Positions 7,143-15,693 of a stretch of DNA of 64,000 nt are shown here, in pieces (the stretch's first letter is position 1; the number at the start of each line of letters is the position of its first letter). Below the pieces are notes generated by a model. That model made no database searches and was not told the DNA's origin. It saw nothing but the letters and a program-made list of their open reading frames with translations. The translations under genes and the position numbers were made by a program. The DNA is from Amylostereum areolatum (lineage: Eukaryota > Basidiomycota > Agaricomycetes > Russulales > Stereaceae): positions 372,001 to 436,000 of the forward strand of contig SAXG01000031.1 in assembly GCA_012932865.1 (NCBI GenBank), given 5' to 3'.

Positions 7143-8213
7143 GTTAGGGGATTTGGCGGGGATGGCTGTGAATGGAAGGAAGGAGGAAGAAAGGAAGGAA
7201 GAAAAACGATGAATGCGGGGTGGCCTATTATCTATTGAGGGAAGAAGTTAGCCAGCGGCCAAGAGGACAAAACAGGCGAGTTCATTGTTGGCCGGGCTGG
7301 GGAGGCCGGGCCTGAATGATCTCGACGCGCGGAATCTGCCACCCATCTTCTTTCCCTCTTCCTTTCATCTCTCCTCCCCTCATGTTGCACGACCACGCAA
7401 TGCAGGAGCCCGAGGAGGCATATGTGTGGGAGGAGCGTCCCATTCTGGAGATTCTCCCCTCGGAGCCTCCTCCTCCCTACCTCCACGGTGCAGGGGAGCT
7501 TTACTACGCCACCGCGTTCCTCCGGCCGGCGGCCCAAGCAGTCGCGGCAATGTACATCATCTCGGTGGATGATCTGGTGAAGGGACTCCTCGCCGAGGCG
7601 GTGAGTTTCCAACTCGCCGATGCTTGGCTGATCTCATCATTTCTACAGAGGTACATGGTGCGCCTGAGCGGCCAGTACGCCATGTGGCACCGTGCGAGGC
7701 TTCTCCCGAACCCGGACCTCCTCTGTCATGAACGCCTCCAAATCGTATACATTGGACCTACATTTATTGTAGTTTATAGTAGTTTACCATCGGACTTCGC
7801 ATCGGCTTCGCCTCGCGTCCGGCCCTTCGGGCATACCGGACTTCTCGGCTTCCTCGGTCATGATCTAGACCTTGGAGTCATACTTACCTTGCCTCGTGTT
7901 GTGACCCACTTCATACTCCGTGGTATCCACTTCGTAGTCCGTCCTGACCCACTCCTACTCCGGCTTTGTTTGTCTTCGTTTGGGTCCTTATCCTCATGTA
8001 TATAAGGGCTCACCAATCTATGAGGAGGGGTCATCTCGACCTTCTCTATTCTCCGGCTACCTGGGGGATCTTCCCTAAGTACTGCAGGGGTAGATCTATA
8101 CCTTCATTTTACCTAGTTATTCCTCGTCCCATCCTCGTCTCCTCTCGCCTGGTACCTCGTCGCGACGCCCTGAAACCTGCGCCGCAGGTAGACCGTTGCT
8201 GATAGTCTCGGTT

Positions 8214-8262
8214 CCAGACGTTCTACTCAAACCGGCGACGCGAGGACTTGTAGAACGTCTGG
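8214..8262. repeat. 13-bp inverted repeat spanning the left end of the RecQ/DUF6589 element
   Basis: CCAGACGTTCTAC (8214-8226) is repeated inverted as GTAGAACGTCTGG (8250-8262) with a 23-base loop. The right arm includes the first nine bases of the element terminus, while the left arm lies in the flank. The flank therefore contains an inverted copy of the element tip. Confidence 0.7.
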
Positions 8263-8306
8263 GGCAGTTCGTCAATGAAATGCACCTCTGTGACTGCCCG
8301 TCACAG
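8254..8306 (+). repeat. Left terminal inverted repeat of the RecQ/DUF6589 element
   Basis: Starts AACGTCTGGGGCA and contains the subterminal palindrome CTGTGAC-TGCCC-GTCACAG at its inner end. The same layout occurs inverted at 14696-14748. The palindrome is kept while its 5-base loop differs, which suggests selection for the stem or for a protein-binding site. Confidence 0.7.
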
Positions 8307-8463
8307 GAACTGATCTGACTAAGCATACACGTGATAGAACGCGTTCACAACGCGTTCGCTATGATGTAATGTTTAATGCGTAAGGTGCCGCGACGCGAAA
8401 TTTTGAACTCTTGTCCGCAACGTCGTCGTTCACCTCCCGCCGCGCCCCCCTTGACACGACGCG

Positions 8464-11400
8464 ATGGTTTCCACCTTTCCCACACCCGAACCACTATACT
8501 ACCCTGTCACTGCAAGCTCTTCCAACCCGGCACTGGCAGTGTCTCAACAGCCGTCTCCTCCGGTGTTCTCAATTCAAACCCCACGCGACACCTCTCCTAG
8601 TCCTCAAGAAACCGAATCGGCTGAAGTTACCGCGCGTGCGCAATCTCATGAAAGAGAACGCAAACGCTGCTCAGAGCTGCTAGAAGAAGCACGCAAGTGG
8701 GCTGCGCCAAAATATGTCTCTGCAGAGGCAAGGAAGAAGATGTCCGAGGAGTGCAAGGCACGCTCGCACGGTAAGATTGTTCCCCACGAGTGGCAGCTTG
8801 ACATTGCAGAATGCCTTATTCTCGGTGTCGACTGCGAACTTATTGCGGCAACTGGCACGGGGAAGACCATACCATTCGCACTTCCACTGTTTTATGACCC
8901 CAAGAAGACAATTGTTGTCATATCTCCACTCAATGCTCTCGAGGTGGACCAGGTGCGTACCCTACATCGTGCGCTATTGAACCAGCCATTTAACAATGGT
9001 TATACATCACAGGAGCAGCGGTTTCGAGATCTTGGGCTACGCGCCAAAGCGGTCAACGGAGAAACATATACCGAACAGGTGCGCAAGGTAAGCTCTTGAA
9101 TCTACGGTGTGTACCATTTCCCTGCTGAATCGCGTGGCAGAGCATACAACGCGGCCACTTCCAGATCATCATAACGTCTCCGGAAATGTGTCTGAAACAT
9201 TCCGGCTTCCGCTCGCTGCTGGACGATCCCACCCGTGCCCTCGCAAAACGACTCGTCGCGGTGATCATTGACGAGGCCCATTGCATCACGCAGTGGGGCG
9301 ACAAGTTCCGCACGATATTCACTAAACTTGGAACCTTGCACGTGTTCGCGTCAGGCGTCCCATTTTTGGTAACCTCGGCAACGTTGACGCCCTCCGACCT
9401 AGTGGAGATTCGCAAACTGACGCATAGTCAACGCCTCAACTCGTACCATCTCAACTTAGGCAACGACCGTCCCAATATTTGCTGGAACGTGCGGGATATG
9501 AAGGCCGGTAAATCTGATCTGGATGCGCTTTTGTTCTTGCTTCCCAGCATCGAGGACGGAACGTCCCTGCAAAGGGGTATAATTTTCTTTGACGATATCA
9601 TAGTATCTATGTACGCGAAGCGGTGGTTCCAAGATCACCTTCCTCCGGCTCTCCAAGGACGAGTGGCGTGCTTCAATTCACGTCGTGGTGCAGGTACCAA
9701 GGCCAGGATAATGACGCGGTTGAAATCAAAAGATATCGATATCTTGTTCGCAAGTGAGGCGGCAGGAATGGTACGCTTATTAACCTTGTTCAGATATCAT
9801 GCTAACGCGGAGATGAACAGGGTTGCGACATTGCGGCACTGGATTTTACGGTTCAATTCATGGTGCCGAGTTCACTGTCTGTCTGGTTGCAGAGGGCGGG
9901 ACGGGCGGGGCGTGGACGGGATTGTAAAGCAAATGCATACCTTCTCATACAGCCGAGTGTTTTTCAAGAGAAGGGGAAAAATACAAGGCTCGAAGACGAG
10001 GATGTCAAATATGTGAAGGAGATAGACGACGGCCTCCGTCTCTGGATAGAAGCACCGTCATGTCGCCGGAACGTGGCAGACGAACATTTCAACAATCCTC
10101 CAGAGCGACATGGTGCGCTTTTTCCTCTCCGTTCATGTGTCGATGGCGCTGTTGAATGACGAGGGGGCAGAACCTGTCGGCGAATGCTGCGATAGATGTG
10201 TCACACGTGACCGCGCTTCTCGTGCGAACCAACAACCTTTGACACCTTCTCCGCCACCTTCAACACCGCCTCCCACCCACTCTCGCAACACATCGCTCGT
10301 CCTACATCACACGCCTAGCAAGAGGACAAACACTTACGGAAAACGGCCCATGCTCGAGCCGCCCGACGAGGCCACACTCGGACCCAAGGCGCGCCGAGAC
10401 CACTGGTTGCATGAGGTGCGTCTCGCCTTGGAGGCCTGGAGGGAGGAGACATGGGATCGGCTGTACAGTCGGCGTCGATGGGGCTCGGAGGCCCTCATGG
10501 TTCCGACGATATTGACTGCGTTCGCGAGCCACGCGCGATGGAGAACGGTGGAAGATGTGCGGAAGGGGGATTCGGTGGCGAGCTCATGGCTCTGGCTGGA
10601 CACGCACGGCGAGGAGGTCCTGGAACGTATACGGAACATCGATGTGAGGGTGTTGGACGAACGCGAGGCGAAGAAAAGGAAAGCATTGGACACAAGAAAG
10701 GAGGAGACGGCACGCAGGAACGCGGAGAAAGCACGACGTAAAGAAGACGATCGCAGGAGGAAGGTGGAAATGATGCAGCGCGCGCGCGATGAGGAAATGA
10801 GTGACGACCCAATGCACGAGAAGTCAGACCCCCCCGCCGCTGCCACAGGCAACAGTACGGAGGCTCAGGTGCGTCTTTCGATACCTTGCGCATAGGCTCT
10901 CTGACGAGATGCACCTTAGGTTGATCTTCAAGCAAACCCCCCTCAACCTCGACCTCGACCTCGACCGCGGCCGGTTCCCCGTCGGCAACAAGTCTCGTCG
11001 GCGCCGCAGACGCTCGCGGAAGATGTCGCCTCATGTGGTGGCACGGCCCCTCCGCCTCACATGCAGGGTTATCTTCAAGCGAACCCCCCTCGACCTCGAC
11101 CGCGGCCTGTTCCCCGACGGCACCAAGTCGTGTTGGCGCCGCAGACACTCGCGGAAGATGTCGCTGCATCAAGTGGGACGACCCCTCTGACGCAGATGCA
11201 ACCTCCGGCTTGGCCGTTCTTCAACGAGCCGATGCATCCAACTCACATGGGTATGTAGCAACACGGACACATCTCCTGTTTTTTACTAAATTAGTCTCTT
11301 AGGTCATTCACCCAGCGATTCAGGGCGTTCTCAACCCACCCCGCCACCTCGCACACCATCCTCCTTCTCAGAATCACCTTACGAACTGTCGCCGTTTGCA

Positions 11401-11736
11401 CCGTCGTCTTTCTCTGCCTCTCCATTCGCACCATCCCCTTTCGACTCACCTTTCACCCCGGCACGGTCTTATCACGACCGTTCCCCGTTTCCCGCACCTA
11501 TACTGTCTACACCTACCTCCGAGTCTCTCACGCGGGCGTTTCATGATGGTCCAGGTGCTACTTCTTCCTCATCCACCTTACGTCTCCCACCATGCTTTGT
11601 CGGTCATAGACCTGCCTTGCCGACGCCGTCTACGCCACGGCTTAGAATACCGATTCGTCGACCTGGGCCATCCACGGAAGGTGGCAGCAGCGCTCCGCCG
11701 AGTCATTGCTTTACACACCGATACGATACCCCGTAG
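8464..11736 (+). CDS. RecQ-like DEAH-box DNA helicase with long disordered C-terminus
   Basis: Seven exons: 8464-8952, 9013-9087, 9141-9770, 9821-10112, 10171-10868, 10920-11250 and 11303-11736. All introns are GT-AG with matching phase, giving about 982 residues without a stop. Superfamily 2 motifs are present: AATGTGKT (Walker A), IIDEAHCITQWG (DEAH box with the RecQ-type CITQWG), TSAT (motif III) and LQRAGRAGR (motif VI). Behind the helicase core are NNPPERH and ECCDRC, which may correspond to a reduced RecQ zinc region. They are followed by a charged coiled-coil stretch (REAKKRKALDTRKEETARR) and a Pro/Ser-rich tail. RecQ enzymes unwind DNA 3' to 5'. Here the gene lies within inverted termini next to a DUF6589 gene, so a role in transposition is inferred, not shown. 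A cellular RecQ or a telomere-linked helicase copy is the alternative. Confidence 0.85.
10920..11220 (+). repeat. 147-bp tandem duplication inside the RecQ-like gene
   Basis: Exon 6 carries two similar in-frame copies (from about 10920 and about 11067). Each encodes LQANPP followed by Arg-Pro dipeptides and then an APQTLAEDVA segment. The first copy has two additional CCTCGA units. It lengthens the disordered tail and does not break the frame. Confidence 0.75.
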
Positions 11737-11785
11737 CATGGCTTTGGAGAGTGAATGGAAGGGTATTATGTACATGCCATCGAAT

Positions 11786-14533
11786 TCATCCCTCAGCGAG
11801 ACCCGGTGCCGGCGTCGTTTCGTCGATGTGATCCCAGTCCTCTTCTGTCGAACGTGGGAAGGAGCGCGCCTCCCACCATCGCGCAAAGCCACCGTTCATC
11901 AACTCCTTCGCACCCTCCGTCATCACATCCTTGACACGGTCTCTTTCCGTGGGCACTTTGCGACCGTCGACCTCCACAAGCCACTTCTCATCCACGGCTA
12001 TCTGCATCTGCCGAGCCACGTCTTTGTCTTTCCCGGGGGTTGTATGCCTCGTTCCTCGCGACATTATGGTTTGATGCTGCCACTTCATGTGTTGCGCAAT
12101 TGCTCGCCAGACCGGGATACCAGGCGATAGCCTTCCGAGACGGGAAAATGTAGCATTTGGGCCAATGGACCGATAGCTGACCTATCCGTTGGTGAGTCGA
12201 TCGGACATTTCTCTGTACTGGACAACTGTACTCACTTTGATATCTTTGATGTTCTGCTCCTGCGCTTGGTCGTATGGTGTGAAGCTTTTCAGCTTTCCCG
12301 TGCGATTCACTAACCAGCAAAACTTTTTTAGAAATGCCCTAGGTTTGAAACTCGTCAACACCATTCTTGTCGGGACTTCACCGTTGCTCTCACCGCATCT
12401 CGGGGGTCAGCTCCTTCTGCAGTGCTTGAATGAGTTCCATGACTTCCTGCTTATATTTTGGATTGCCCCCTCCTGCAAAGCGGAGAAGAAGGTCCGGTAA
12501 GAGATCCTCCATCCGTCCGACGTCTCCCGACTTGATCGCTTCGCGTAGGTCAAAGTAGAGCAAGACGTCGAAGATGAACATAACAGTACGAAACTTGACC
12601 TCATCCTTGTTATCTTTTTTCCTCGCCATCTTTTCCAGGGCCGCTCGCGATGCGAACTGGTTGTAGATCTCCTCGGCCAGGAGAGCGAGCTCTTCAGGTG
12701 TCTTTGTGGTGAGTTCATCGAGCTTCTCAACCCCTGCTACCTGGATCCAACATGCGAGAATTAGACCCTCGCCGACATGCCATAACGCTTCATCTAGATG
12801 GTGCCAATGCGGTCCTTTTGCTTGCGTCTTCTGCAATCCCTTGCGATTGAGCAAGTCGAATGCACGCTGTAAGCTGGGCCCTGCTGACGTTCCACGGAAT
12901 TGGTCGAGAATCGACGCCGCTAGTGCAAAAAGGAGATGCAGCCACCCAAATACAGGAAGGATCCAGTCGAGGCGCTCGTCGCTGTTCTTGTCTTCGTGTC
13001 GAAATTTGATCAGGCCGCGCAAGCGATCCACAGTGAGTTGGTCTCCTATAAACACGATCAGGCGCTCTTGTGAGAGCTTCTCTCGCTCATCTGCACCATC
13101 CAACTTGAGCTGACGCAACCACTCCTGTAGAACTTTTAGGTTGCCCTCGTAGCTGGCCTCCTCGATGTCGGCTGTTTGCAATATGAACTGGTGTGTGATG
13201 TTCTCGGGTCCTGACGGGAGAAGTTCCACAGGCGGTGGCGGGGATAGGATGGGATTGTTACGATGCTCGTAATTTATTAGAGGTGGACTGTTGAGCAGAA
13301 AGCGTAGGATGCGGTCCTTCGCGTGGGCTTCGACTCGCTGGTCACCTTCTGCTTGGCGGGGCAGTTGGCCAACCAGCATTTTCTCGAGGCTAAACGGCTC
13401 CTTCGCCCCTTCCCTACGCTGCCTCTGGTAGTCCGCGTTCATGGCAGGTGTTAGTTCGGCATCCTTGGGAAGCACCCAGATCGTCCCGGCGCACCCGCTG
13501 TAGGAGTGGTGGTTCTTGTCTGACCGCTGCGAGAAAACTCGCATCGGGATGTTGACATTGTCGTATGTGGCGACGAAGGCTTGTTCGCGTATGATCTTGA
13601 CCACTTCTTCCATTGCAATGTCCGAGATCTTGTCCATCCTCTCTGTTGTCCATTTGATGCTCATGATCATTCCTGTGGCATGTAGGGCATCAAATGCACG
13701 GGAAGAGAGACCACACGTCTTCAGGTAGATTGCCCACAGGCCCGCAAGGCGGCTCCGTCGATGAGATCGCGTGTACGACAGCATTCCGAGTATGTTCAAG
13801 ATTACCTGGTATCGAGGCCAAGGTAAGTGTGCACTGTCGCATACGAGTTAAGAAGATGGCTCACATTTTCAGGAGACTTGTGCTTATTGCGGGATGCTTG
13901 TCGGCCGCTCCATGCAGCGGCCATGAGGATCTCCCATAACTCAGAGGCACCGTCGTCTTCACCAGTGGCCAGGGTTGTTGCGAGTTTGCCGAAGTTGAGA
14001 GATGTCAAGGACTCCATGGACATGGGATTGTCCCCGGGGGTAAAGTGGCAAGCGATCCTCTTCATCCCTCTTCGCACGAGCTCCTTTGCACAGTCGATAA
14101 CAAACCTTTTCAGGCAGGCTTGCCCAGCCTCGGCTCTTCCACCTGGAGGATGCCACCAGCGGCGAAGGATGTAAGGTAACTCTTTGCTGGTAAAAAGGCT
14201 TGTCCGTTGGAATTGTATGACACTATCGGCCGTGCATTTTTCATCCCCCCAGCTCAAGGCATCGAGAAAGAGAGCAAGATCCAAACCGAGTGCGTTGATA
14301 AGTTCGCAAATTTGGCGGACCTTTGCGTGTATGTCTATGGGAACGGTGCGCGGGCGCGTGGGGAAGTGTGGTGGTTCATCGACGTCCATATCGGAGTCTT
14401 CGCTATCAGAGGAGGAGGAGGAGGAACTGTCTTCATCTTGCATGGAGAAGTTGTCGGAGTCAGCGTAGTCAGAAAATGTACCATCGTACAGGTCTTCAAA
14501 AAATAGAGATGCTTCAGATTCATTGTCGGACAT
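11786..14533 (-). CDS. DUF6589-family protein, candidate transposase of the RecQ/DUF6589 element
   Basis: Four exons: 14533-13865, 13805-12394, 12338-12236 and 12181-11786. Introns are GT-AG, phases match, and about 859 residues are read without a stop. An alternative start lies at 14608. The N-terminus is acidic (QDEDSSSSSSSDSEDSDMDVDE). The core shows features I associate with the basidiomycete DUF6589 family: VATYDNVNIPMRVFSQRSD, then VFIGDQLTVDRLRGL, GWLHLLFALAASILDQ, HWHHLDEALWHVGEG and FCWLVNRTGKLKSFTPYDQ. The conserved Asp in YDN, Asp in GDQLT and a later Glu could form a DDE-like triad, which is an inference. The C-terminus (RGTRHTTPGKDKDVARQM...) is basic. It ends 49 bp from the RecQ-like gene, tail to tail. 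No function is established for the family. Confidence 0.8.
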
Positions 14534-14695
14534 GGTGCAAGCAGTTGTGGAGAGTAGCAAAAGAGCATATTCAATTTCGGATGGTGTAGAGGAGCCATAG
14601 GGGCTCAAGCGCTCAAGGCGGACATGGCCAAACTGGACACCGCTAGTCGGACCGGTAGTGCTATGATGTAGGTATGATGAGTAAAAATCACCTGA

Positions 14696-14748
14696 CTGTG
14701 ACCTTCTGTCACAGAGGTGCGGTGCCTTGACAAAGTGCCCCAGACGTT
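14696..14748 (-). repeat. Right terminal inverted repeat of the RecQ/DUF6589 element
   Basis: Read on the minus strand it starts AACGTCTGGGGCA and ends CTGTGAC-AGAAG-GTCACAG, matching the left end at 43 of 53 positions. It lies 163 bases upstream of the likely DUF6589 start codon (14533), so it may also hold promoter elements for that gene. Confidence 0.7.
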
Positions 14749-14880
14749 AGATAGCGAGTTGTGCAGGGGTTTTTCGAGGGTGAGTCAAGTGTGATTGTGT
14801 CATCCCATCATCATGATTTCATCATCCCATATTTCCCTCGTCCCCCGCTGAAAAACCCCTGCACAACTCGCTATCTAACG
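14745..14880. repeat. Perfect 31-bp inverted repeat (hairpin) next to the right element end
   Basis: The arm 14745-14775, starting CGTTAGATAGCGAG, is repeated exactly inverted at 14850-14880 (ending CTCGCTATCTAACG), with a 74-base spacer. Its outer CGTT overlaps the tip of the right terminal repeat. It contains no gene. It may be part of the element, a small separate insertion, or a by-product of insertion. Confidence 0.85.
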
Positions 14881-15693
14881 GCGGGAACGAGACTACGTTG
14901 CTGACATCCTCGCCATCTACGCCGTGCTTACGGGGAAGATGCGGCCACCGGACCAAGACGTCACCATTGCTGACCTCCTGCCCCTCTTACCACGGGGGCC
15001 AGACTTGCCGATCGACGATCAGCCCGACCTGAATCAGTGGTGGGATGAGAGAGGGGTGGTGGAGAAGGGCGTGCAGTCAGCGGTGCTGGATGCGGTGGCC
15101 GTGTGGGAGGAGTGTACAGTGAGTACCCTTGCCGTGCAATGCAGTATACCGCTGACCTGTCACCCTTTTGCAGCCCTCCAACGTGGCCCTGACCCGAATA
15201 CGCGCCATCAAGCGCGAAGTCGAGGACCAGCTGATCGAGGTTGACTCGGAGAGCCCCTTGCTGACAGCCCAACTCGCCGCCTCGGCGAGGGTCACCGACC
15301 TCGGCCCCACCGGCCAGACATTCGTGCGCGGGCAGATGGATGATCTGGTCAATGCGTGGAAGGCACTGGAGAACATCCGGGACATATACATCCAGCCGAC
15401 CGCACAGGGGATGGCAAGGAGGCTGGAGTCGATGGTGCCGGACCTGCAGAGACTCGCCAAGATGGACGCTGTTGCGACAGAACTGGGGGAATTGGTCAGG
15501 AGAGTCGGCGATAGTGGTGAGTCGGTCGGTGGCTGGTCCTTCCGGTGAGCGGTGATGTTTTGGTATGGGATTGTTAGGACTGTATTTTTAACATCATTTT
15601 CATTTTCCCTTTCATCTTCCACCTTTGTATATCATGAGGAGACTGTATGCTACGCCTACAAGTAGAAATAATGCATGTAAGAAACCCAGAAGG

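Follow-up and report, generated by a model that had tools for sequence, protein, structure and literature searches.

The window, a stretch of 64,000 nucleotides from the basidiomycete Amylostereum areolatum, contains one gene coding for a RecQ-like helicase and another for a protein of the DUF6589 family, both lying between inverted repeats. An earlier note on this DNA had taken the unit for a candidate new class of transposon. The locus therefore raises the question of whether the two genes travel together as one mobile element and, if so, which protein acts as the transposase and to which lineage the element belongs.

Ends and insertion site of the element

Repeat comparison and a genome count place a 53 nt inverted repeat, 81% complementary, at positions 8254-8306 (plus strand) and 14696-14748 (minus strand). 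This repeat is far above chance level. Its first 13 bases occur exactly 51 times in the 57-Mb genome (24 forward, 27 reverse), versus 1+1 occurrences for a reversed control. The repeat that the earlier note took for the termini is thus real, but it is subterminal. Likeness among copies runs outward to TAGTCTCG on each side, from where the flanks diverge, and the true ends lie further out, by 51 bp on the left and 147 bp on the right. The whole transposon accordingly spans positions 8203-14895 (6,693 bp, TAGTCTCG...CGAGACTA, no strand assigned), and comparison of the flanks reveals the 9-bp target-site duplication CGTTGCTGA on both sides, at 8194-8202 and 14896-14904.

The insertion point falls inside a copy of a long terminal repeat (LTR), 2 bp short of the LTR end. 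There are 39 other matches to this LTR in the genome, three of which were read at the insertion site. Copies L085 and L087 carry the uninterrupted sequence CGTTGCTGACA, and L086 carries a one-base variant, CATTGCTGACA, that is likewise uninterrupted. The insertion into the LTR, the 9-bp duplication and the related copies at other places all bear out the view that the unit is a transposon and arrived in one piece.

A count of paired ends in the genome yielded 27 units, 16 of which, including the window element, have both flanks readable. The 9-bp duplication is exact in 14 of these 16, carries one mismatch in one copy (C45) and is absent from one (C1:2770881). The 15 duplications in this family are each of a different sequence. 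Most paired ends are less than 3 kb apart, which leaves no room for both genes, and many of the short copies that keep both ends measure about 1-1.3 kb. A 96%-identical copy is present in halves, the left on C138 (49523-52532) and the right on C146 (about 207515-210170), which meet at window position 11193, give or take about 3 bp, as in a split or translocated copy. An 11.5-kb unit with like ends and an exact 9-bp duplication is located at C2:659728-671211. Units of 97-197 bp carry like end motifs in inverted order at C13:148707-148894, C38:67009-67194, C101:176031-176127, C101:442188-442384, C135:252114-252299, C147:47958-48133 and C170:8489-8676.

Both ends are predicted to fold into hairpins as DNA. 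The left hairpin (8203-8266, plus strand; arms at about 8214-8226 and 8250-8262) has a folding energy of -14 kcal/mol and a z-score of -2.98, equalled by 1 of 200 shuffles. The right hairpin (14736-14880, minus strand; arms at about 14745-14775 and 14850-14880) has a folding energy of -43 kcal/mol and a z-score of -9.38, equalled by none of 200. Among 13 variants of the right end, nine of the 22 pairs have changed in both arms, whereas shuffles give 3.3 and slid controls no more than 2; this count leaves out four columns per side where the alignment shifts, kinship can push such counts above shuffles, and gene conversion between the arms could also maintain pairing. In one copy (L007:1582-1645, on C181) the left hairpin has a loop that is reverse-complementary to that of the other copies with its 64-nt end type, suggesting that the hairpin exists in living cells. 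The loop looks like the product of a hairpin that was opened and then rejoined in the opposite direction. The DUF6589-side end of another family, F6, starts with TAGCCTCG and contains nested inverted repeats. Neither the strong hairpins of family F1 nor the nested one of the F6 end was seen at the ends of families F5 and F7, where short inverted repeats alone were found.

The helicase and DUF6589 genes and their association

The gene models were guided by relatives, and their introns were inferred from the GT-AG rule using DNA alone. The RecQ-like helicase gene (8464-10159, plus strand), located by tblastn with relatives, has exons at 8464-9087, 9141-9770 and 9821-10156, followed by a stop codon at 10157-10159, and encodes 530 amino acids. 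The DUF6589 gene (11786-14533, minus strand), identified by Pfam and its spliced frame, has exons at 14533-13865, 13805-12394, 12338-12236 and 12181-11786 (including the stop codon) and encodes a predicted transposase of 859 amino acids. The five inferred introns all have GT-AG borders, and once they are removed both frames are free of internal stops, as had been claimed for these two multi-exon genes.

The helicase carries the motifs GTGKT, DEAH and RAGRAGR. A single open stretch matches the NCBIfam model TIGR00614 (recQ_fam, E 6.9e-17) and DpdF (E 6e-17), both below the curated whole-protein cut-offs; the recQ_fam score of 61 bits comes from one unspliced open stretch, and its cut-off of 219.8 applies to a whole protein. 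There is also a match to the WRN family (E 1.2e-11). Because the relative P0140 has an additional tblastn alignment at 10365-10643 (37% identical), the gene may include a further exon or end more distally. The open frame of the second DUF6589 exon matches Pfam PF20231 with an E value of 5.5e-89, its 299 bits passing the gathering cut-off of 27. The closest matches of the two proteins are both from Amylostereum chailletii, each on a contig of 9,273 bp.

A search of the genome with PF20231 gave 112 matches. Part of these, with repeats within entered loci omitted and three loci from another search added, make up a set of 59 DUF6589 loci. Thirty-eight of the 47 helicase matches have such a locus within 5.5 kb, against 0.57 under uniform placement. 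The 38 pairs are not 38 independent events, as some families contribute several copies. Thirty-one pairs are convergent, the tail-to-tail arrangement named in the earlier note, and seven are divergent (C145, C128, C170, C94, C70, C111:360012 and C66:430061). At this distance, nine helicase matches and 21 of the DUF6589 loci remain unpaired; some partners could have been missed because the helicase query represented one family only, and some unpartnered DUF6589 loci are short matches. In public data, 11 of 119 DUF6589 proteins for which a contig size is given reside on a contig exactly equal in size to that of a helicase match, versus 0.48 on average at 100 shifted sizes; equal size does not prove that the contig is the same, nor does a shared long contig prove adjacency. 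Inverted ends also frame the pair elsewhere, since full-length pairs occur within like ends at C45 (8 of 9 duplicated bases) and at C119 (9 of 9), where the protein is 59% identical.

Two further families differ in their duplications. The F5 protein is about 28% identical to the window DUF6589 protein over the aligned part. Its six copies, at least 99.6% alike over the compared parts, have TAGTCT at both ends, and exact 8-bp duplications, compared by eye, flank the five copies in which both ends are readable. Family F7 is represented by two oppositely oriented copies (C1:2627026-2633274 and from C1:2635412) whose 8-bp duplications, cctgtgct and gatgcggg, are exchanged, a pattern as after inversion between both copies.

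DUF6589 as a predicted DDE transposase

The earlier note had proposed DUF6589 as the transposase, with the Asp of YDN, the Asp of GDQLT and a late Glu as its catalytic residues, and this proposal is supported by the predicted fold and by the conservation of D, D and E. AlphaFold models of DUF6589 resemble RNase-H/DDE transposases (Hermes, P element), and include the RNase-H-type DDE fold with helical insertion that is characteristic of the hAT, P and MuDR group. By sequence, the DUF6589 profile gave no match to solved transposases up to E 10, including the Drosophila P element (PDB 6p5a/6pe2). The predicted DDE centre comprises D305 (YDN; codon 13560-13562), D478 (GDQ; 13041-13043) and E721 (DxxQE; 12257-12259), all on the minus strand. 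In alignment A1, 107 of the 111 non-gap rows have D at D305 and the other four have N, and D stands at D478 in 117 of 118 non-gap rows. E721 is E in all 48 non-gap rows of alignment A2 and in all 16 loci of the same genome with a readable position. The three residues lie at the places expected of a DDE triad and are conserved wherever readable, with one exception.

Two other glutamates were considered for the last position. From the 485-aa exon alone, the first choice had been the glutamate of KYxxE, numbered E468 in the exon and E676 in the homologue. It was rejected because the full-length model puts the matching position near homologue residue 720, where DxxQE is the better fit; the KYxxE position is K or Q in two divergent loci (L045 and L068). 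E353 was discarded because it is absent from divergent families.

Between the second D and the last E, alignment A2 has a single invariant His, which is preceded at position -3 by Gly in 52 of 52 rows (GxxH); in the three further columns that are mostly His, that position is mostly N, P or A in place of C or D. The C/DxxH signature, given for hAT, P and MuDR as well as for Kolobok in the portion of the source consulted (PMC9587614), is therefore not conserved in this interval of DUF6589, in which it differs from the hAT transposase Hermes (PDB 8sjd) and from KolobokH. All 54 family members scanned with Pfam match DUF6589, and of the 23 other Pfam families found in them (one or two members each, best E 0.0043) none bears the name of a transposase. 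A search for distant relatives returned 29 proteins, fungal in every case with a named organism, and reached no animal Academ relative.

Lineage of the element and possible roles of its helicase

A new class is unlikely, as helicase-carrying fungal transposons, AcademH and KolobokH, are already published and AcademH combines a helicase with 9-10-bp duplications and Basidiomycota hosts. AcademH was reportedly described by Kojima in 2020 (Mob DNA 11:15). In the parts of the descriptions available to us, AcademH is a DNA transposon with a helicase (PMC10045372, PMC10799480) that makes 9- or 10-bp duplications, AcademX making 3 or 4 (PMC10045372), and is found at low copy number in Basidiomycota, Ascomycota and Mucoromycota (PMC10799480). 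The RecQ-like gene, the 9-bp duplication of the window element and its family and the basidiomycete host all agree with these excerpts, and the 8-bp duplications of F5 and F7 differ from them. On the strength of helicase, duplication length and host range, the element likely belongs to AcademH, a filing by description. With a probability of about 0.7, we regard 8203-14895 as a DNA transposon that makes a 9-bp duplication, encodes a RecQ-like helicase and a predicted DDE-type DUF6589 transposase, and is likely of the AcademH lineage. A search of one literature library, the scope to which this statement applies, found no mention of DUF6589, and its identity as a transposase seems to be the unpublished part.

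It is rather unlikely, given how well the helicase, 9-bp duplication and probable basidiomycete host match the partial AcademH descriptions, that DUF6589 elements instead form a separate superfamily that acquired RecQ independently and kept an unchanged cut-and-paste mechanism. The 8-bp duplications of two families, the Pfam results for the 54 members and the GxxH signature would nevertheless suit such an origin. We are more doubtful still of a cut-and-paste superfamily of its own in which an obligate RecQ helicase processes terminal hairpins, the loops flip on movement, and hairpin ends rather than a long plain inverted repeat serve as the recognition signal. A purely accessory DUF6589, with a different enzyme moving the unit, is very improbable because the predicted fold and residues suit a DDE enzyme; in the region between the genes (about 10160-11785), Pfam was run on two open stretches and found no family over its cut-off. 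Identity with KolobokH deserves still less weight. According to the section consulted (PMC9587614), KolobokH likewise encodes RecQ and is confined to fungi as far as is known, but Kolobok makes 4-bp TTAA duplications, and the 9- or 8-bp duplications found here, which vary in sequence, contradict this, as GxxH differs from C/DxxH. Finally, two host genes lying by chance between ends of an unrelated small element can be dismissed, for even though most paired ends are too close together to hold both genes, the pairing recurs across families, full-length pairs lie within like ends at C45 and C119, and the C119 copy, with its diverged protein and exact duplication, contradicts coincidence.

In the preferred reading of a likely AcademH element, the DUF6589 transposase would bind the ends, excise the element and join the ends to the target with a 9-bp stagger, or with an 8-bp stagger in F5 and F7, and the same enzymes may mobilize the short copies that keep both ends. 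The helicase might unwind the hairpin-forming ends, or might assist in restoring the element to the gap by copying from a sister chromatid, as BLM does after P-element excision in flies. The P element is not known to encode a helicase and makes an 8-bp duplication. Drosophila lacking the RecQ helicase BLM show poor P-element gap repair and more flanking deletions, according to the portion of the source consulted (PMC8951532). By analogy, an element-encoded RecQ could favour copying of the transposon back into the gap, with hairpin ends as a second substrate; the data favour neither role.

The only description that DUF6589 carries so far is that of a family without known function. Should it prove to be a transposase, the hypothetical proteins from mushroom-type fungi that turned up in these searches, well over a hundred in number, become transposon genes, as do many RecQ-like genes near them. 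The element would also provide a test case for why a transposon carries its own RecQ helicase, its covarying hairpin ends offering a tangible substrate.
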